Of a stretch of DNA of 8,342 bases, positions 130-7,776 are shown piece after piece (position 1 is the first letter of the stretch; each line of letters starts with the position of its first letter). This stretch comes from an uncultured Campylobacter sp. (GTDB lineage Bacteria; Campylobacterota; Campylobacteria; Campylobacterales; Campylobacteraceae), in NCBI RefSeq assembly GCF_937949835.1, contig NZ_CALEDC010000213.1:1-8342 (forward strand), read 5' to 3'. Under the pieces are notes generated by a model, which worked only from the letters and a program-made list of their open reading frames with translations, had not been told where the DNA came from and ran no database searches. Made by a program: the position numbers and the translations under genes.

Positions 130-468
130 TTATGAAGCAAATTTTATAGCTATAACGCTACCATTAAATTTCTCCGCACCGCATGAGTCGGCAGCGCCCT
201 TTAAATTTGAAACTTCGCTCTTTTCATCGCGCGCGCTAGAAAATCCGCTAAATTTATGACCATTACGGCCGCACAGCTGTTTTTCGCACGGCACGCCGTC
301 GCCGTCGCCATCGGTATGCTGGGTGCCGCCTTCCTGAGCCCTGCCACACTCTCGCAGATACCGCGTCGCCTCTTCGCAGCTGCTAAACTGCGAGCAATAG
401 GTCTTGGCGTTGCAATCAAGCCCCAAAGCAAGACTAGCCAATACCGAAAACAATAAAACTAATTTCAT
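130..468 (-). CDS. secreted Excalibur-domain protein
   Basis: The protein has 112 residues with a strong AAGGAGA site 4 nt before the ATG at 468. Residues 1-16 form a signal peptide (KLVLLFSVLASLALG), probably cut after ALG by signal peptidase I; there is no proper lipobox. The mature part opens with CNAKTYCSQFSSCEEA and continues to DGDGDGVPCE (53-62) and LC. This is the Excalibur motif, a calcium-binding loop related to EF hands, with five cysteines in the region that could form disulfides. The domain is found alone or at the end of secreted nucleases and surface proteins. The tail (67-112) is Ser/Lys-rich and unassigned. It has its own promoter region and is probably a monocistronic gene unrelated to the operon upstream. 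Its partner or substrate is unknown. Confidence 0.85.
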   Translation of the reverse strand: MKLVLLFSVLASLALGLDCNAKTYCSQFSSCEEATRYLRECGRAQEGGTQHTDGDGDGVPCEKQLCGRNGHKFSGFSSARDEKSEVSNLKGAADSCGAEKFNGSVIAIKFAS

Positions 469-654: not shown

Positions 655-999
655 CTAGGCGCTTTTGCGCGCGCGAGGCTTTCTTTTTGGGGGAGCGCTT
701 TTTACTGACGTACTTTTGCCGTCCGGCAGGTTTTCCAAAGCTAAATTTGCTACGGATCTCTTTCTGCCCCGACTCTTTGCTTTTCTATTTTGTAAAAACT
801 CGCTGTATGGCGAGCCGTAAAGGCTAGCGTGCCAGATCGCGCTTGCCAGCATCACTGCACCCGAAACTTTATGCAGCTGCGACATATGCGAGTTCATATT
901 CAGCGCGGTTAGAGCCGTGATACCCATACTCAATCCCAGCGTCACTTTAGCCGCTTTGCGCTGAAAATTTAGATCCAAAATTTTATCTTCAATGCTCAA
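655..999 (-). CDS. small two-helix membrane protein with haem-type histidines, last operon gene
   Basis: The protein has 114 residues from the TTG at 999, overlapping the ATPase gene by 11 nt. A short amphipathic N-terminus (IEDKILDLNFQRKAAK) leads to membrane helix 1 (about 17-34), a loop NMNSHMSQLHK, membrane helix 2 (about 43-61, VSGAVMLASAIWHASLY) and a basic tail rich in Lys, Arg, Ser and Pro (72-114, ending PKRKPRARKSA). His43 and His57 are 14 residues apart on one helix face. The HKxxGxxxLxxxxxHxxLY pattern resembles membrane b-haem proteins of the DUF4405/ferric-reductase-like kind. A haem-binding iron reductase or electron carrier for the compartment is a possibility, but helix 1 has no His partner and haem binding is not shown. 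Ferrosome operons do carry small membrane proteins beside FezB. I do not assign a fez letter. Confidence 0.75.
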   Translation of the reverse strand: MSIEDKILDLNFQRKAAKVTLGLSMGITALTALNMNSHMSQLHKVSGAVMLASAIWHASLYGSPYSEFLQNRKAKSRGRKRSVANLALENLPDGKSTSVKSAPPKRKPRARKSA

Positions 1000-3070
1000 A
1001 TTTTACCCCTTTGATGGAATTTAGTAGAAGGCCTATCGTCGTGCCGTTGTGCAGCAGCGCCGTAGCTACGGGACTTAGCGCGCCAAAGGTCGCCAAAAAT
1101 AAAATGATCGAATTTATCCCCACGGTGGCGTTGAAATTTCGATTTACGAGCCGCAGCGTGTCGTTGGCCAGCGCCTTTACCTGCGCGACGCCCTCGATGT
1201 CGTTTTTCAAAAGCCCGATCTGTGCGGAAGCCTTGGCGATCTCGGCGCCGTTTAGCATGCTGATGCCGATGTCCGCCTTCATCAGGCTCGGCGCATCGTT
1301 TATGCCGTCGCCCACGAAGACCACCTTTCGCCCCTCGGCTTTTAACTGCTCTAAAATTTCGGTCTTTTGCGTCGGTAGCAGCTCGCCGTAATAGCGATCT
1401 ACGCCGAGCTTTTTGGCTACGGCGCGGGCTTTTGAGCTCACGTCGCCGCTTAGCATGACGATCTGTTCGGCGCCCAACTCGCGGAGCCTAGTAATGACGG
1501 CGCGAGCGTTTGCGCGCACCTCGTCTCTAAGCCCGATGAGCCCCAAAAGTCTGCCGTCAAATGCGATGTAAAGCAGCGCGAGCCCCTTTTGCATCGCAAG
1601 ATCGATGGTCTGCTCATGCGCCGCAAATGAGATCATCTCGTCGTCCTCTAGGAAGTGGCGCGAGCCGATGATGAGCTTTTTGCCCTCGATACTGGTCTTT
1701 ACGCCGTGAGCGACGACGAATTCCACCTCGTCGTGGTGTTTGTGGATAAAACCGTGCTTTTTAGCCGCATCCACGATCGCCTCGGCTACGGGGTGAAAGT
1801 AATGCTCCTCGGCGCTTGCGGTTAAATTTAAAATATCGTTTTTGCTGAAGCGCTCGTCAAACGATATGATCTCGGCGACCTCCAGGTTGCCGTACGTAAG
1901 CGTGCCCGTCTTATCGAATACGAAGGTGTCGGCGGCCGCAAGCGACTCAAGAGCCTTGGCGCCTTTGATCAAAATCCCGTTCTTGCCCGCCTTTGAAATG
2001 CTCGACTTAAAAGCAACCGGCGTAGGCAGCTTAAGCGCGCACGAGTAATCCGCCTGCAGCACCGAAGCCACACTCATAAAATTTCGATTTATCAGATATG
2101 ACACGCCCGCAAGCCCGAAGGTTACCGGCACGAGCTTGTCGGCTAAGTGAGTCGTATGCATGCCGATGCTGGAGCGTTCGTTAAGAGATGCCGTGATGTA
2201 GTGCTTTATGCGCTGCGTAGAGGTGTTTTCGCCGACGTTTTCCGCCCAGATACGGATCCTGCCCTCCTCTACGATCGTGCCGCTTAACACGCTATCGCCG
2301 CGAGATTTTTTCACCGCGACCGATTCGCCCGTCATATTGGCTTGATTTATCATCGCTTCGCCGCTTACGACGTGTCCGTCCACGGCGATGACGTCGCCTG
2401 CGCCCACGACCACGATATCGCCTACCTTTAGCTTAGAAGTTGCGATTTTGATCTCGGTCTTTTTGCCGTTTTGATCTATCTCGACCCACGCCTCGGCGAT
2501 GTCCGGACGGGCGAGCTCGCGGATAAGATCGTCGCTTTTATAAACGGTGCTTTCCTCCATGTATTCGCCAAGAGCAAGCATAGCGTTGGTGCTGTTTGCG
2601 GCAAATACATCGCCGCGAGCGAGCGAAATCCCGACAGCAGCGGCCTCCAAACCCTTTGAAGTAAGTCCATGACGAAAGCTTTCTTTAATGCCCTCTTTTA
2701 AGATAGGCACGCACGCTACGATGCTAAATGCGCGCACTAAAGGCGAAGTGCGAAAGATTAAATTTCCGCCCAACGCAAGAAGCGCTAAAATAAATTCGTT
2801 TTTGCTTGGCAAATTTTTATGGTTAGCGGGGATAATTGATTTTAGCTCGCTTAAATTTAAAACTTCAAGTTGCTTTAGAATTCCTGCCTTATTTACGCCT
2901 GAGTCAAGCCTAAGGATCAAAGAGCCAATTTTAGCGTTAAATCTAGCTTCCGTTACGCCTTCAAGCCTCGCAGTGGCTCTTTGCAACGCGCTCGTATCGA
3001 GCCCTTTAAAGCCCGCGACCTTTATGCGTAGTCTAGTTTTGGTCTCATGTAAAATTTTAAAATTTTGCAT
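989..3070 (-). CDS. fezB: P1B-6-type metal ATPase, FezB-like (ferrosome ATPase)
   Basis: This 693-residue integral membrane ATPase has all P-type catalytic parts: actuator TGES (247-250), phosphorylation motif DKTGTLT (Asp386), nucleotide-domain HP (426-427) and hinge GDGIND (587-592). The N-terminus (1-80) is an HMA_2-like domain with TRLRIKV and IGSLILRLD and no CxxC. The ion-site helix reads DYSCALKLPTP (341-351), so the CPC of copper and zinc ATPases is replaced by SC. The last helices contain HNGTTIGLLLNS (674-685). Hydrophobic segments before the actuator (about 92-122 and 140-170) are short, fewer than in CopA. This combination fits the P1B-6 group, whose founding member FezB is needed for ferrosomes and is thought to move iron into the vesicle. 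Transport of iron here is inferred from the family. The start codon lies 3 nt after the previous stop, and the 3' end overlaps the next gene by 11 nt. Ordinary annotation may call it a copper- or heavy-metal-translocating ATPase. Confidence 0.88.
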   Translation of the reverse strand: MQNFKILHETKTRLRIKVAGFKGLDTSALQRATARLEGVTEARFNAKIGSLILRLDSGVNKAGILKQLEVLNLSELKSIIPANHKNLPSKNEFILALLALGGNLIFRTSPLVRAFSIVACVPILKEGIKESFRHGLTSKGLEAAAVGISLARGDVFAANSTNAMLALGEYMEESTVYKSDDLIRELARPDIAEAWVEIDQNGKKTEIKIATSKLKVGDIVVVGAGDVIAVDGHVVSGEAMINQANMTGESVAVKKSRGDSVLSGTIVEEGRIRIWAENVGENTSTQRIKHYITASLNERSSIGMHTTHLADKLVPVTFGLAGVSYLINRNFMSVASVLQADYSCALKLPTPVAFKSSISKAGKNGILIKGAKALESLAAADTFVFDKTGTLTYGNLEVAEIISFDERFSKNDILNLTASAEEHYFHPVAEAIVDAAKKHGFIHKHHDEVEFVVAHGVKTSIEGKKLIIGSRHFLEDDEMISFAAHEQTIDLAMQKGLALLYIAFDGRLLGLIGLRDEVRANARAVITRLRELGAEQIVMLSGDVSSKARAVAKKLGVDRYYGELLPTQKTEILEQLKAEGRKVVFVGDGINDAPSLMKADIGISMLNGAEIAKASAQIGLLKNDIEGVAQVKALANDTLRLVNRNFNATVGINSIILFLATFGALSPVATALLHNGTTIGLLLNSIKGVKFEH
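1006..1010 (-). promoter_or_regulatory. ribosome binding site fixing a TTG start at 999
   Basis: AGGGG on the minus strand lies 6 nt before TTG (997-999), inside the last codons of the ATPase gene. The next in-frame ATG is 25 codons later and would remove the N-terminal helix. The TTG start is therefore favoured. Confidence 0.65.
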
Positions 3071-3073
3071 CGA

Positions 3074-3568
3074 CTACTCTTGCATCTCTGCCTTGGCGTC
3101 TTCGAATCGCTCCTTCATCTCTTCGATGCCCATCTGAAACATCTCGGTACCCTTTGCGATGAGCTTAAAAAGCTTTTTTTGCGCGTTTTCGTCGGTGAGA
3201 AAATAGGTCGCCATAGCACCCAGAGCGATGCCTGTGATAAATGAGTTGCTACCGAATAAGCCGTTCGCGTTTTGCCTGCCACCCAAGGAATTAAAAATTC
3301 CACCGGAAGTGGAATTTTGCGAGCTTTGAGTAGAATTTACGTCGCTTGAGCTTTGAGCGGCGGAGCCTTTATCATTCGAGTCGCTGTCAGAAGCCGAGCC
3401 GCTAAAAGGCGCGGAATTTACTCGCTCATTTATCCATTTAGCCCAACCGCCGAGCTTTTCGTCACCGGCAAAGCTACCCGCAGAGCCGCTAGCATATTTG
3501 TTGTCACCAAAATCGTAATCGTCTAGAATTTCTTTCAAATCTTTTTTTGTGATATACGGATTACTCAT
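3074..3568 (-). CDS. Ser-rich protein with C-terminal YtxH-like membrane helix
   Basis: The protein has 164 residues; its ATG at 3568 has AAGGTAGG upstream, inside the end of the previous gene. Residues 1-50 are hydrophilic with a Trp-containing patch (GGWAKWINERV, 40-50). Residues 52-90 are a low-complexity linker of Ser, Asp, Asn, Gly and Gln. One membrane helix (FITGIALGAMATYFL, 110-124) follows and leads into TDENAQKKLFKLIAKGTE and a charged amphipathic helix to the end (128-163). The helix plus T(D/N)ENAQKK segment is typical of YtxH-like proteins found in gas-vesicle and stress operons. It looks like the mirror image of the first operon protein, with the disordered part before rather than after the membrane helix. 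The function is unknown; a vesicle scaffold or adaptor is plausible. The stop is 3 nt before the ATPase start. Confidence 0.75.
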   Translation of the reverse strand: MSNPYITKKDLKEILDDYDFGDNKYASGSAGSFAGDEKLGGWAKWINERVNSAPFSGSASDSDSNDKGSAAQSSSDVNSTQSSQNSTSGGIFNSLGGRQNANGLFGSNSFITGIALGAMATYFLTDENAQKKLFKLIAKGTEMFQMGIEEMKERFEDAKAEMQE

Positions 3569-3863
3569 TGCCTACCTTAAGAATAAAATTTCTACCCGCA
3601 ATGAGCGCGCCTACGCATACTGCGACGCCTGCCGCTGCGCGTAGATACTCGCCTTGTACGAGCTTATTTGCGCTGTAAATCGCACCGCCGCCGATGATAC
3701 CGCCGCTTAGCGCGATATCTAACGCATCTCGAATCGCTTTAGATTTGCTTTTGCCTTCTTTTGCTTTAACGAGCTCTACGGCGCAACCGCCGATCGCCCC
3801 CGCTATAGCGCCGCTTAAAACGTGATCCAGCGGCGAACGCTGTGTCGTAAGTGATCTATTCAT
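3561..3863 (-). CDS. small glycine-rich membrane protein, MamC-like layout
   Basis: The protein has 100 residues, with AGAGG 5 nt before the ATG at 3863. It has two or three membrane helices. The first (about 15-32, SGAIAGAIGGCAVEL) is followed by a short charged stretch (KAKEGKSKSKAIRDALD, 33-49), then a glycine-zipper helix (about 50-68, SGGIIGGGAIYSA) and a third (about 74-95, RAAAGVAVCVGALIAG). GxxxG spacings recur, which favours close helix packing and membrane curvature. The arrangement of glycine-rich helix, charged helical loop and glycine-rich helix recalls MamC/Mms13 of magnetosomes, whose loop contacts magnetite. The similarity is judged by eye and may be convergent. Fez operons are reported to contain small hydrophobic proteins, so a vesicle-membrane structural role is the best guess. 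It overlaps the next gene by 8 nt (3561-3568), which implies coupled translation. Confidence 0.75.
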   Translation of the reverse strand: MNRSLTTQRSPLDHVLSGAIAGAIGGCAVELVKAKEGKSKSKAIRDALDIALSGGIIGGGAIYSANKLVQGEYLRAAAGVAVCVGALIAGRNFILKVGNE

Positions 3864-3871
3864 TTAGGCCT

Positions 3872-4351
3872 CTATTTTTCTGATTTATCGTCTGCGGACG
3901 TAAATTTAGCCGAAGAATTATCGTCCATCTTTACGATCTGCGGGATATTAAGCGGAGTAGTAGATACTGCGGATGTCTCACCTACCGGTGTTTCGCCCGT
4001 CTTAGCGCTCACGGTAGATTTTTTAGTTCTTTTAAATCCCGGTTTTGGTCCCGGTTTTTTTCTAGTTTTTTTTGCAGTGCTATCGCTACTTGTCGCAGCT
4101 TTTTTACCGCCAGCCTTTCTTTTACCTTTTACCGCCTCAGCGACATCGTCTAAGCCTTCTTTGGCTTCCGCAAAAATTTCTTTCGATTTTTTGCTTAATT
4201 TTTCCGCTCCGCCTTTGACGCTATTTTTCAGCTCCTCGACGCTTTTACTGCTCACGATTTTATTCGCACCTTCTTTAATTTTATCTCGATTGTTATAAGC
4301 GTAAACCGCCGCGCAACCAAGCGCAAAACCTGCTAGAAATGGGATCGGCAT
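3872..4351 (-). CDS. membrane-anchored Lys-rich protein of the ferrosome-like operon
   Basis: The protein has 159 residues. The ATG at 4351 has AAGGAG close upstream. Residues 3-20 form one hydrophobic helix (FLAGFALGCAAVYAY) followed directly by NNRDK, the pattern of YtxH-like small membrane proteins. Residues 22-75 are an amphipathic, charged helix (K/E/A-rich, probably coiled coil). Residues 76-112 are extremely basic, with KGKRKAGGKK and RKKPGPKPGFKRTKK, resembling histone-H1-like or AT-hook-like tails. The end (113-159) is a disordered Thr/Ser-rich, finally acidic stretch. I recognise no catalytic domain. In this operon an anchored protein with a long charged tail could line or scaffold a membrane vesicle, or bind phosphate-rich mineral or nucleic acid. 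That is inference. It is the first gene behind the main promoter, with the next gene 8 nt downstream. Confidence 0.75.
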   Translation of the reverse strand: MPIPFLAGFALGCAAVYAYNNRDKIKEGANKIVSSKSVEELKNSVKGGAEKLSKKSKEIFAEAKEGLDDVAEAVKGKRKAGGKKAATSSDSTAKKTRKKPGPKPGFKRTKKSTVSAKTGETPVGETSAVSTTPLNIPQIVKMDDNSSAKFTSADDKSEK

Positions 4352-4375
4352 TTCATTCTCCTTGTGTTAAGATTA

Positions 4376-4397
4376 TAAAGTTGTTTTATCAACTTTA
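4376..4397. promoter_or_regulatory. 8-6-8 perfect palindrome, candidate operator or leader hairpin
   Basis: TAAAGTTG, six bases (TTTTAT on the plus strand), then CAACTTTA form a perfect inverted repeat. It starts about 7 nt downstream of the predicted transcription start, and its far end overlaps the second TATAAT (4372-4377). That is a typical place for a repressor operator controlling both promoters. No T-run follows the arm, so a terminator is unlikely. As RNA it would form a small 5' hairpin that leaves the AAGGAG site free. The sequence does not look like a classical Fur box. The regulator is unknown. Confidence 0.6.
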
Positions 4398-4410
4398 CAT
4401 AGATTTTGAT

Positions 4411-4439
4411 ATTATAGCGACTTTTTTAGATTTTTGCAA
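4411..4439 (-). promoter_or_regulatory. sigma70 promoter of the five-gene ferrosome-like operon
   Basis: On the minus strand TTGCAA (4434-4439) and TATAAT (4411-4416) are separated by exactly 17 bp, with an A-rich spacer. The predicted start is near 4404, which gives a leader of about 50 nt before the ATG at 4351. It lies in the 95-bp gap after the ferritin-like gene, the largest gap inside the cluster. A second TATAAT at 4372-4377 could serve as a downstream promoter with a leader of about 14 nt. Confidence 0.7.
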
Positions 4440-4446
4440 TCCTAAT

Positions 4447-5058
4447 TTAATTTTTCTGCAAAATTCCTTTAATTAAATTGGAAAATGCGCTATTTAAGAT
4501 ATTTTGCAAATCGTATTTTTGAAATATCCGCTCTAATTCCTGCGGATTTTTTAAAATTTCATTTAATAAATCAGTGAAATTCAAAAAATTTAAATCAGCC
4601 TCGCATTTAGAATTTAGTTCCTTTAAAATCGGCAAAATTTCATTATACGAAACCGCCTGCGCCTTATATAGCTGCTCTTTAAATTCTGCGTTCTTACACG
4701 AATTAATTAAATCGTCATAAAACATCATAGAGCTTTTTTCTATCAAAAGTGCCGAAGTCAAAAACTCATTCATACCTTTTGTAGCCAGTGCCTCACTGCT
4801 ATTTTCAGGAGGCGTGGCGCCAAGCCCGCAAGAATTTGCAAAGTCTAACATCCGCTCAAGTAATCCAGCTCGTAAAGATAGAATTTCTCCTAACTTTTTA
4901 TCTTGAAATTTAACTGCGCCCAACGAATAAAACTGTAAAATTTGTGCCTCTTTTTCGAGCAAAAGAGCAATATCTGCAATTTGCGCCTCATTTAAATTCC
5001 GAGATTTATTAGAAATTCTGCGCGATTTTTTAGTGCTACGTAATACTTCTTCGCTCAA
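4447..5058 (-). CDS. ferritin-like four-helix protein without histidines (ferrosome cluster)
   Basis: From the TTG at 5058 the protein has 203 residues and is almost wholly helical. After a basic N-terminus (residues 8-20 rich in K, R and S) come four amphipathic helices at about 22-50, 54-76, 92-120 and 123-149, with a short helical tail to 203. The helices resemble rubrerythrin/bacterioferritin-type ferritin-like domains: EKEAQILQFYSLGA in helix 1 and LLIEKSSMMFYDDLI in helix 3 have the usual spacing of a metal-ligand Glu and a Tyr. The ExxH motifs of helices 2 and 4 are missing (LSLRAGLLERM and YKAQAVSYNEIL), and this version contains no histidine at all, so a normal di-iron site is unlikely. 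It may be a structural relative, or a carboxylate-only metal binder. It is translationally coupled to the HMA_2-like gene. The coding DNA is clearly more AT-rich than the ATPase gene. The ferritin-like assignment is moderate; a generic helical bundle is the alternative. Confidence 0.7.
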   Translation of the reverse strand: MSEEVLRSTKKSRRISNKSRNLNEAQIADIALLLEKEAQILQFYSLGAVKFQDKKLGEILSLRAGLLERMLDFANSCGLGATPPENSSEALATKGMNEFLTSALLIEKSSMMFYDDLINSCKNAEFKEQLYKAQAVSYNEILPILKELNSKCEADLNFLNFTDLLNEILKNPQELERIFQKYDLQNILNSAFSNLIKGILQKN

Positions 5059-5372
5059 GAAATCGCCTCTATATTGGAATTTACAAGCGCTACTAGCTCC
5101 GGCGAACTGATGCCGCTTAAAAACTGCTCCCAAAGGTGCATCGGAAAAACGCTTTCATCATAATGAATCGTCAGCGAGCCGATTAGAGAGTTAAATTTAT
5201 ACTCTTTTATCCCGCGAATTGCAGCTATTTTAGCCTTCAGACTCTCCTCGCTCACGCTATCTCGCAACTCCCTTATTTTAGGACTTACGCGGATGCGAAT
5301 ACGACCTTTGCTGTGGCTGATTTTGCTAAAATATTTATGAAATTCCAAAATATCGTTGTGATTTATTTTCAT
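5055..5372 (-). CDS. stand-alone HMA_2-like protein with RxRxR motif (ferrosome cluster)
   Basis: The protein has 105 residues with the ATG at 5372, chosen because AAGGA lies 5 nt upstream (5378-5382). An in-frame TTG at 5396 has no such site. The pattern is a ferredoxin-like metal-domain fold: strand GRIRIRVSP (23-31), a helix, then YKFNSLIGSLTIHYD (58-72). The same pattern opens the P-type ATPase of this cluster (TRLRIKV and FNAKIGSLILRLD), so the two domains are clearly related. Neither has the CxxC of ordinary heavy-metal domains; they have R24, R26 and R28 instead. This fits the HMA_2-type domain found with P1B-6/FezB ATPases. It may be a soluble partner or regulator of the ATPase, or a vesicle component. 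That role is inferred from the shared domain and the neighbourhood. No signal peptide or membrane helix is visible. Its TGA stop overlaps the TTG start of the next gene. Confidence 0.8.
   Translation of the reverse strand: MKINHNDILEFHKYFSKISHSKGRIRIRVSPKIRELRDSVSEESLKAKIAAIRGIKEYKFNSLIGSLTIHYDESVFPMHLWEQFLSGISSPELVALVNSNIEAIS
5066..5070 (-). promoter_or_regulatory. ribosome binding site fixing a TTG start at 5058
   Basis: On the minus strand AGAGG lies 7 nt before TTG (5056-5058), which itself overlaps the TGA stop of the HMA_2-like gene (TTGA). No comparable site precedes the upstream ATG at 5133, which would force a 79-nt overlap with the previous gene. This favours the TTG start and translational coupling. 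Confidence 0.7.
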
Positions 5373-5396
5373 ATTTTTCCTTAAATTTGCACCCAA

Positions 5397-5405
5397 ATAA
5401 TATCA
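5397..5405 (-). promoter_or_regulatory. extended -10 promoter candidate before the HMA_2-like gene
   Basis: On the minus strand this reads TGATATTAT, an extended -10 (TGn plus TATTAT), 25 bp upstream of the ATG at 5372. No good -35 is visible, which is common for Campylobacter sigma70 promoters. It overlaps a near-palindrome at 5395-5415 (AAATGAT, 7 nt, ATTATTT, one mismatch) that could be a regulator site. It would let the HMA_2-like and ferritin-like genes be expressed separately from mogA. This is motif evidence only. Confidence 0.4.
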
Positions 5406-5437
5406 TAAATCATTTAATTCCTGCTAAATTTTGCGAA

Positions 5438-5965
5438 TTATTTGCGTTTAGGACGGAATATTTTTATCTTATTTTCATCCGCTGTTATGTAATTTCCTCC
5501 CATTAAATCAATACAATACGGCACGGCAGGAAATACCGGCAGCAAGCATTCTTTAATCGCTTTTGGATTGCCCGGTAAATTTATAATCAGAGATTTTTTG
5601 CGGATCGCTGCTATCTGGCGCGATAAAATTGCCGTAGGCACGATCTTTTGGCTTTCTGCGCGCATTAGTTCGCCAAAGCCTGGCATTAATTTCTCACTTA
5701 CCGCTTCGGTCGCTTCAGGCGTTACATCGCGTGGAGCAGGACCCGTGCCACCAGTAGTTAGCACCAAATCACAACCCGCTTCATCGCAAAGATAAATCAG
5801 CTTATCTTTGATCAGCTCTAGCTCATCTGGAACTATTTCATAAAAATACTCTTTCTCGCAAGTTAGCCAATCATCCATCACGGCAATTATCTCTTTGCCT
5901 CCTAAATCCTCGTAAACGCCACCGCTAGCGCGATCACTGATCGTTAAAACACCTATTTTTACCAT
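5438..5965 (-). CDS. mogA: molybdopterin adenylyltransferase MogA
   Basis: The 175-residue cytoplasmic protein is a full-length MogA/MoaB-fold enzyme. It starts MVKIGVLTISDRASGGVYED, with the family SDR motif at 10-12. It carries TTGGTG at 70-75 followed by PRDVTPEAT (78-86), the molybdopterin-binding and catalytic region including Asp80, and LPGNPKAI (130-137), the conserved C-terminal phosphate-binding loop. MogA uses ATP to adenylate molybdopterin, giving MPT-AMP for molybdate insertion by MoeA, so it serves molybdoenzymes such as formate dehydrogenase or nitrate reductase. The ATG at 5965 has a strong GGAG site nearby. It lies 29 nt behind the FtsH-like gene and probably shares its transcript. 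The 65 bp after its stop lead into the HMA_2 gene with no clear terminator, so read-through into the next cluster is possible. MoaB is the alternative name, but the DVTPEAT and LPGNPKA forms fit Mog well. Confidence 0.92.
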   Translation of the reverse strand: MVKIGVLTISDRASGGVYEDLGGKEIIAVMDDWLTCEKEYFYEIVPDELELIKDKLIYLCDEAGCDLVLTTGGTGPAPRDVTPEATEAVSEKLMPGFGELMRAESQKIVPTAILSRQIAAIRKKSLIINLPGNPKAIKECLLPVFPAVPYCIDLMGGNYITADENKIKIFRPKRK

Positions 5966-5994: not shown

Positions 5995-7776
5995 TTAATC
6001 GAAATTTAGCGTGCCGTCTTGCGGCTTTTCTTCAGAGCTTTCGCTATCTTTTTCCAGCTTTTGCAAATCTTGCTCTTGCTCGGAGACGCCTTCTTGCTCC
6101 GCACCATCGGATTCGCAAATCTTTTGAACATCCTCGAAAGTTATGAACTCATAAACGAAAATTTGCTTTGAAATTTGATTTAGCTTATCCTGCATTGTAC
6201 GGATTATCTCGCTTACCTCGTCGTAGCAATCTTGCAAAATTTTATTCACGCTCTGCGCACTAGGGGTGAAACTATCGCCCATCGCGAGCTCAAAAACCAT
6301 CTTTTGCGCCAGCGCGATAGCCTGCTTTACGTCGCTAGCGGAATTTGAAAAAGCGTCGTTTTTATGGATTTGTAGCGCCGCCATGCCGCTTAAAAGCACT
6401 TTGATTTGATTTAAAATTTGTGTTTTGGATTCGATCTCGAAATCCTCGTTTAAAAATTTATCGTTTAAAAGCTCGATCTTTTCGAAATCAAACGAATACC
6501 AATACGCGCTAAGCGCCTTTGCGCCCTGATAGAACGCCTGGATCTCCTTTTCGTATTCAGTTAGAATTCTGCTTTTTTGCACGCCGTAAAAGACCCTCAT
6601 TCGCACGTTTTCAAAATCGCTAAGCTCGATCGTATCGCTGCCGCGCTTAAGAGCGTTGATTGCGGCTTCATTTACCAGCGTCGCTACTCCCGCACCGCTA
6701 AAGCCCACGCAGAGGCGGCTTACTTTGTTGATATTCGCGCTGCATCTTTTGCCCTCGAGGTAAATTTTTAAAATTTCGATGCGGTCTTTGTAGTTCGGAA
6801 GCCCGATAAAAACGCGCCTATCAAAGCGCCCCGAGCGCAGAAGCGCATCGTCGATCAAATTTATTTTATTGGTCGCGCCGATTACCATCACGCCGCTATT
6901 TTCCTCAAATCCATCCATCTCGGTCAGCAGCTGATTTAGCGTCGCTTCCCGCTCGTCGTTGCGCCCGATACCGCGCTTGCCGCCGACCGCGTCAATCTCG
7001 TCGATAAAAATAATCGCAGGCGCGCAGGATTTGGCCTTCGCAAACAGCTCGCGAACCCGCCTAGCGCCGACACCCACAAAGACCTCGGCGAAGCTTGCGC
7101 CGCTTTGGTAAAAAAACGGTACATCTGCCTCTCCCGCCACGGCTTTTGCAATTAGCGTTTTACCGACGCCCGGCTCGCCGATCATTAAAATTCCTTTCGG
7201 CAGTTTGATGCCGAAATTTCGGTATTTTGCGGGATTTTTTAAAAAATCCACGATCTCTATGAGTTCGTCCTTAACCTCGCTGATGCCCGCGACGTCGCTA
7301 AATCTCACGTCGCTAACGCTTGGCGAAAGATCGCCGAGCTCGCCGCCCGAGCTAGCGCTCTGACGCGCGGCGCCGTCCATCTTGCGGCGTCTAGCCAAAA
7401 CGGTTTCAAAATAATATACGAAGAGAAAAAATGCGAATGTAAAAATTACCAAAATCGCGCTGATACCGCCGCTTTCGTTATCCTCTTCCTTCGTAATCAA
7501 AGCGTGGTTAGAAAGTTCTTTTAAATTAACGATATCGGTTAAAATTTTATAGCGTTTGCCGTCGTAAACGAAACTTAGCGTGCCGTCCTCGATATGCGCG
7601 CGCTTGATCTGATCTTTTCGCACGAGCTCGCTAAATTCGCGCTCGGTGATGTATCGCGAATCGTCTTTAAAATAAACGATCGAGAGCAAAACGATAAGCA
7701 GCACTAAAAAAATCAGAATTATATTTAGCTTGCTTTTTTTGATTTTATGCAAAATTTCCATCAAATTTAACCTCAT
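5995..7776 (-). CDS. FtsH-like membrane AAA+ protein with inactivated protease motif
   Basis: The 593-residue protein has the FtsH layout. It has a membrane helix at about 18-35, a small extracytoplasmic domain to about 104, a second helix at about 106-123, then an AAA+ module with Walker A GEPGVGKT (200-207), pore motif FVGVGA (233-238), Walker B IIFIDE (255-260) and an intact second region of homology with arginine fingers ([10 protein letters not shown], 312-321). The peptidase half is recognisable but dead. Where FtsH has HEAGH, this protein has YQGAK (416-420), and the GGRxAEE-type helix reads SGMAALQ. The ATPase therefore looks functional and the zinc protease does not, which suggests an unfoldase, chaperone or adaptor role. 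The tail from about 556 is acidic and Gln/Glu-rich. The start at 7776 overlaps mtaB by 32 nt. An ATG five codons later (7761), with GAGG 9 nt upstream, is equally credible. The stop lies 29 nt from mogA, so an operon is likely. Epsilonproteobacteria are known to carry a second FtsH-like gene, and this fits it. Confidence 0.9.

Follow-up and report, generated by a model that had tools for sequence, protein, structure and literature searches.

Which bacteria build ferrosomes is the question raised by the stretch of DNA analysed here (the window), 8,342 nucleotides of contig NZ_CALEDC010000213.1 from an uncultured Campylobacter sp. Such membrane-bound iron stores, formed by the products of fez genes, occur among others in Shewanella. 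According to the available parts of the respective sources they are also known from Desulfovibrio magneticus (PMC12748827), are built from six fez genes in Rhodopseudomonas palustris (PMC12016538) and require FezA and FezB in Clostridioides difficile (PMC12574912). For Campylobacter, Campylobacterota or Epsilonproteobacteria we found no literature report of ferrosomes; a supplement may already list Campylobacterota members. A preliminary description of the window had singled out seven collinear genes at positions 655–5372 as a candidate fez cluster, and the list of open reading frames (ORFs) confirmed this row with seven mostly touching ORFs in one direction on the minus strand, here called A to G in the order of their transcription (Table 1). 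By descent and gene content we read the row as a ferrosome (fez) cluster that likely builds membrane-bound iron stores, and we put the probability of this reading at about 80%. We do so because its ATPase falls among FezB-type pumps, the gene order is unbroken in relatives, D and E recur in other FezB-type loci, the last protein carries an HX13H motif and Fur-family genes or Fur-box-like sites lie near the cluster in many relatives. The new element would be a phylum-specific ferritin-like head on one anchored ferrosome part.

Both features that had been ascribed to the P-type ATPase F, the SCALKLPTP motif and an RxR-type N-terminal domain, were found in its sequence (RLRIKV at residue 13, TGES at 247, SCALKLPTP at 343, DKTGT at 386, HP at 426 and GDGIND at 587). 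In a phylogenetic tree of 52 rows F belongs to a clade of 26 rows together with ATPases from Clostridioides, Desulfobacterota and Alphaproteobacteria (bootstrap 100, Shimodaira–Hasegawa-like approximate likelihood ratio test (SH-aLRT) 99), and four further rows (L310, a cyanobacterium, a planctomycete and Marithrix) are its sisters. The remaining 22 rows stand apart, namely six of copper type, six of zinc type, two with CPH, one with SPC, six second CPC pumps and one other; these types are labelled by motif and not by function, and there is no PfeT among the rows. The outgroup rows are matches of a motif scan of genome contigs that was swamped by the generic P-type motif. A larger tree of 105 rows agrees and shows a FezB-type clade of 50 rows (SH-aLRT 98). 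Grouping with copper or zinc exporters, which the preliminary description had named as speaking against ferrosomes, was looked for, and F lies outside both motif-labelled clades in the two trees, which led us to discard it as a copper or zinc exporter. Exporters of the PfeT, CopA and ZntA type share the P-type core with F but carry CPC or SPC motifs and, with PfeT not represented, form separate clades. In addition, F failed the NCBIfam equivalog cut-offs of the CopA model (283 of 1316 bits) and of the ZntA model (225.5 of 1240 bits). The pattern CA[LIVM]K[LIM] occurs in 40 of the 50 members of the larger FezB-type clade and in none of the 55 rows outside it, and LHN..T..LNS marks just 22 of the 50, again with 0/55 outside. 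The Clostridioides ATPase in the trees (locus L275, 91–94% match to proteins named Clostridioides difficile) would be the FezB of the literature because it has an RxR N-domain and SCALKL and because a one-helix FezA-type gene lies directly upstream. Judged by this phylogeny F is a FezB-type ATPase, a class that we take to be P1B-6. At 17 loci, L148 (4626-6803) among them, a second P-type ATPase is encoded, which is distinguished by a CPC[AS]T motif and shows the RxR pattern in 13/17 cases. It forms its own clade in the 105-row tree (17 rows, SH-aLRT 100), and its place is upstream of A (12 Campylobacterota loci) or of the entire cluster (five Desulfobacterota loci).

ATPases of the type of F were detected in 48/48 genomes of one genus (E-value ≤1e-100) and, at an E-value ≤1e-90, in 91 of 153 genomes of the family and in 102 of 298 genomes sampled from the phylum. 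The gene order was compared in 62 loci, comprising 60 Campylobacterota loci hand-picked from these matches (mostly on long contigs), one from a gammaproteobacterial metagenome-assembled genome and the window, with gene profiles that had been iterated on these same loci. A, C, D, E and F are present in every one of the 62, while B was found in 59 and G in 58. In no locus is the order A-B-C-D-E-F-G disturbed, so the synteny check that had been proposed for Campylobacterota came out in favour of the cluster. In L168, L170, L173 and L174 one fused ORF matches both D and E, and the last three of these loci are without G and have a short, anchorless B. Some loci contain an extra gene between F and G; in L151 (11023-12483) and similar loci this is a sodium:alanine symporter gene, and a quinolinate phosphoribosyltransferase-like gene follows after G. 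The profiles of B, C, D, E and G matched none of the 6817 ORFs in 75 control loci around other P-type ATPases, and the A profile is unspecific with 13 matches there, other ATPases among them. Among 37 other FezB-type loci (40 distant ones minus L312, which is from the same genome as L003, L310, which lies outside the clade, and L292, which scored low and is not in the tree) we found A in 18, E in 16, D in 15, G in 9, C in 6 and B, by its tail only, in 6; the A count leaves ATPases out and rises to 19 when the N-domain of the ATPase itself could count.

The seven genes are predicted to be co-transcribed as a single operon, in which A/B, D/E and F/G overlap and gaps of 3 bp, 8 bp and 95 bp separate E/F, C/D and B/C, respectively. 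A palindrome in the B–C gap (AAAGTTG-N6-CAACTTT) differs by one change in the near-identical genome L144, and we do not propose it as a site. Between the window and L144 the ratio of nonsynonymous to synonymous substitutions (dN/dS) is 0.03–0.24 for A–F, so that the small ORFs can be taken for genuine genes. G reaches 0.51 overall because its tail diverges, with only four amino-acid changes in residues 1–75.

This last gene had been left unnamed in the preliminary description and was recognised here as FezC-like. All 58 G homologues contain HX13H, which is the spacing of the stacked b hemes in ferric reductases, and His43 and His57 are invariant in 34/34 homologues. Similarity to DUF4405 is weak, as 27 of the 34 homologues match at an E-value ≤0.1 (best 1.7e-4) and G of the window reaches an E-value of 0.024 and 15.6 bits, under the curated cut-off of 26.7. 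FezC itself is described, in the part of the source available, as a DUF4405-like, heme-b-binding protein that may act as a homodimer (PMC10979944). Compared with this description both are small membrane proteins with conserved His residues and a predicted homodimer heme site. By these features G is a FezC-like membrane protein, and a heme b site formed by its homodimer is predicted. As had been claimed, A is a second protein with an RxR-type domain, since GRIRIR is present and the Pfam model HMA_2 is passed with 33.6 bits (cut-off 30). A and G of the window resemble the halves of a protein that is fused in other loci, because in L303 and L305 the protein adjoining the ATPase consists of an N-terminal HMA_2 domain (above the cut-off) and a C-terminal G-like HX13H part. 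L308 and L309 have the look of the same RxR and HX13H fusion by pattern only. In the long-type Desulfobacterota clusters A and G are separate, as they are in the window, where G stands alone as the last gene. Two variants of G were seen in addition: in L003 G is directly followed by another G-like protein (11425-12027), which includes a SpoIIAA-like domain (E-value 1.3e-18), and in L156 (11139-11714) the G homologue itself has 191 residues.

The small membrane proteins C and E show a weak but consistent resemblance to FezA-type proteins in profile comparisons (hhalign probability 93 over 39 columns for C and 84 over 57 columns for E, each a single comparison). YtxH-like membrane proteins had been noted in the row; E has a weak match to Pfam YtxH (E-value 0.003, below the cut-off), and C is YtxH-like by eye only. 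Profile comparisons of D with FezA and with Gly-rich tails were not used, as they were contaminated by the four D–E fused ORFs.

Gene B had been described as ferritin-like, and this part stands for its predicted fold. Although B of the window has no Pfam match, its AlphaFold2 model is a four-helix bundle (pLDDT 82), as is that of the L184-type B. Among the Foldseek matches listed (50 for the window) ferritins, bacterioferritins, Dps-like proteins and MJ0754 prevail, with a best E-value of 4.3e-3 for the window and 2.0e-5 for L184. The DUF2202 cut-off is passed by B of L003, L184 and L192, and there is no DUF2202 match for B of the window, L148 and L170. The fold of the DUF2202 or MJ0754-type proteins is shared, but the B family differs from them in its C-terminal membrane anchor and its location in fez clusters. 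The complete set of di-iron ligands (E, E, H, E, H) is present in 25 of 59 B homologues, namely in 1/32 of the family of G001 compared with 23/25 of the other Campylobacterota, plus L003. A hydrophobic C-terminal helix is found in most homologues, those of the window, L144, L146, L170, L173 and L174 being without one.

Outside the Campylobacterota the B profile matches ORFs of Desulfobacterota and Alphaproteobacteria by the tail only (within positions 133–203 of 211); the one exception, L312, is the Campylobacterota-type L003 again. In 12 loci from these two groups (L283, L284, L285, L287, L289, L313; L294, L295, L296, L298, L299, L300) the tail-bearing protein upstream of the ATPase is Gly/Pro-rich, with heads that consist to 59–82% of G, P, Q, Y, A, M or N and contain 2–17 Cys and His. 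An A gene lies just before it in five of six Desulfobacterota loci (in L300 if the start is taken inside the ORF), and wherever D was found the Gly/Pro-rich protein is upstream of D, which is the place of B in Campylobacterota, C aside. The tails of B align with the Gly/Pro-rich tails (a profile built from 8 of the 12 loci reported) over 52 columns including the pre-anchor helix with a probability of 96.7. Those of E align over the 36-column anchor with a probability of 97.6 (0.6 for A as control), and thus the anchor itself is common to several of these proteins. We read this arrangement as one anchored slot with two kinds of head; similar tails might also result from a shared anchor that was recruited twice. 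The partly different protein set that had been expected for this host is found in the ferritin-like head that stands instead of a Gly-rich one. It is conceivable, with the odds somewhat against it, that the Campylobacterota rebuilt the ferrosome by replacing the Gly/Pro-rich head with a tail-anchored ferritin-like domain, of which the Campylobacter family later lost the iron site and the lineage of the window also the anchor, so that a part resembling an enzyme became a structural one.

A possible connection to iron regulation is seen in many of the relatives. Same-strand genes of the Fur family occur upstream of A in 34 of the 62 loci when 3 kb are considered and in 18 at a distance of up to 300 bases, and a 15-mer resembling the 15-base Fur-box consensus was found in 22 of the 62 (p ≤ 0.05, 100 shuffles; about 3 expected). 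In C. difficile Fur represses FezA and FezB, as stated in the part of the source available (PMC12574912).

For the ferrosome reading the following model can be drawn, for which the analysis itself shows the genes present, their order, the phylogeny and the conserved residues. The FezB-type ATPase F would pump ferrous iron into vesicles, with substrate and direction as inferences, and the FezC-like G would pass electrons across the vesicle membrane. The small anchored proteins could shape or coat the vesicles, the roles of A to E being putative. In relatives with a full di-iron site B may oxidise iron or hand it over at the vesicle surface; in the lineage of the window, with site and anchor lost, B would be a structural or adaptor part only, if it has a role at all.

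Several observations weigh against this reading, and some of them would fit plain metal efflux, in which ferrous iron or some other divalent metal leaves the cell through F, aided by the small proteins as accessory subunits, and no vesicle is formed. P1B pumps are mostly exporters, F passes the NCBIfam cadmium-family model (347 bits, cut-off 313.5), though the Clostridioides ATPase does so too, and the second CPC-type ATPase adjoins the cluster in the 12 Campylobacterota loci mentioned above. The motifs of F are also not perfect markers: the CAxK pattern is missing from 10 of the 50 clade members, and the RxR pattern is missing from seven (all of the Campylobacterota group) yet present in 13 of the 17 second CPC pumps. 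Moreover, the Clostridioides cluster is without A, B, D and G at the thresholds used, so that only F and the FezA-type protein are common to both, and scanning transmission electron microscopy with energy-dispersive X-ray analysis of the campylobacterotan Nitratiruptor reported polyphosphate granules (PMC10092412), which bears on the reading if this organism has the cluster. Efflux is nevertheless an improbable explanation to us, as F groups with the FezB-type pumps and as the anchored Gly-rich proteins, conserved as a set, and the FezC-like protein gave profiles without a match in the control loci.

The further points against a ferrosome concern the window itself and bear on what its host still makes of the cluster. 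There is no adjacent Fur gene in the window, and its best Fur-box match covers 9 of 14 positions and is equalled by 0.81 of the shuffles, so a Fur box ahead of the cluster was rejected as no better than chance. B of the window has E, R, L, E and I at the ligand positions, keeping two of five, and is without the C-terminal anchor. These losses could mean decay, the cluster being inherited from a ferrosome maker whose descendants in this lineage no longer form granules. Against this, all seven genes are present and open, the catalytic motifs of F are all intact and A–F have the low dN/dS values given above, making decay a very unlikely course of events. The same ligand residues argue against the view that the ferrosome reading is right and B in addition stores or oxidises iron in this host as a functional ferritin-like protein. 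The predicted fold and the complete ligands in 25 of the 59 homologues would favour such a function, but it is at odds with the residues of the window copy and with the rarity of the complete site in the family of G001, and we hold it to be hardly credible; B as a working ferritin of this host was discarded on the ligand residues. Regarding the earlier description of B, the fold was therefore retained and the iron site was not.

Compared with the known systems, the ATPase F and the FezA-type likeness connect the cluster to that of C. difficile, and A, D and E connect it to the long type to which the R. palustris fez genes (RPA2333-2338, six genes) belong. The latter were compared by way of the Rhodobium gokarnense cluster L283, in which the six such genes are RxR, D, Gly-rich, D, E and ATPase. 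The R. palustris-type cluster carries the Gly/Pro-rich head in contrast to the ferritin-like head in Campylobacterota.

Table 1: Genes of the putative fez cluster in the window, in the order of transcription.
Gene	Position	Strand	Features
A	5055-5372	-	small HMA_2/RxR-domain protein, GRIRIR at residue 23; first gene
B	4447-5058	-	predicted ferritin-like four-helix protein; DUF2202-type in relatives
C	3872-4351	-	single Gly-rich membrane helix and Lys/Ala-rich tail; FezA-type likeness
D	3561-3863	-	glycine-zipper membrane protein
E	3074-3568	-	NPYI motif, membrane anchor, amphipathic KERFEDAKAE tail; weakly like FezA
F	989-3070	-	FezB-type P-type ATPase; RxR N-domain, SCALKLPTP, catalytic motifs intact
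G	655-999	-	FezC-like two-helix membrane protein, HX13H (His43, His57)

The closest genome found, G073 (one contig, 2,281,652 bases), shares all seven genes, its ATPase being 97% identical, and the named relatives at 61–65% are Campylobacter (P0004, P0005, P0006, P0110). Upstream of the cluster the window contains mog, an FtsH-like gene and a partial mtaB. The FtsH-like AAA protein (5995-7776, minus strand) is probably not a working protease because its M41 part is without the HExxH motif. Downstream lies a gene for a small secreted-looking protein with an Excalibur calcium-binding domain (130-468, minus strand). The G+C content is 0.55 in the ATPase stretch (1001-2000) and 0.36 over A and B (4001-5500), despite the order being conserved in relatives.

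If the ferrosome reading is true, a phylum whose members include many inhabitants of guts, mouths and vents would possess an overlooked vesicle-type iron store, and iron-restricting hosts would be confronted with it. The exchange of heads would also represent a natural experiment on anchored ferrosome proteins, in which similar tails bear low-complexity heads in two phyla and, in a third, ferritin-like heads that are intact or dead.

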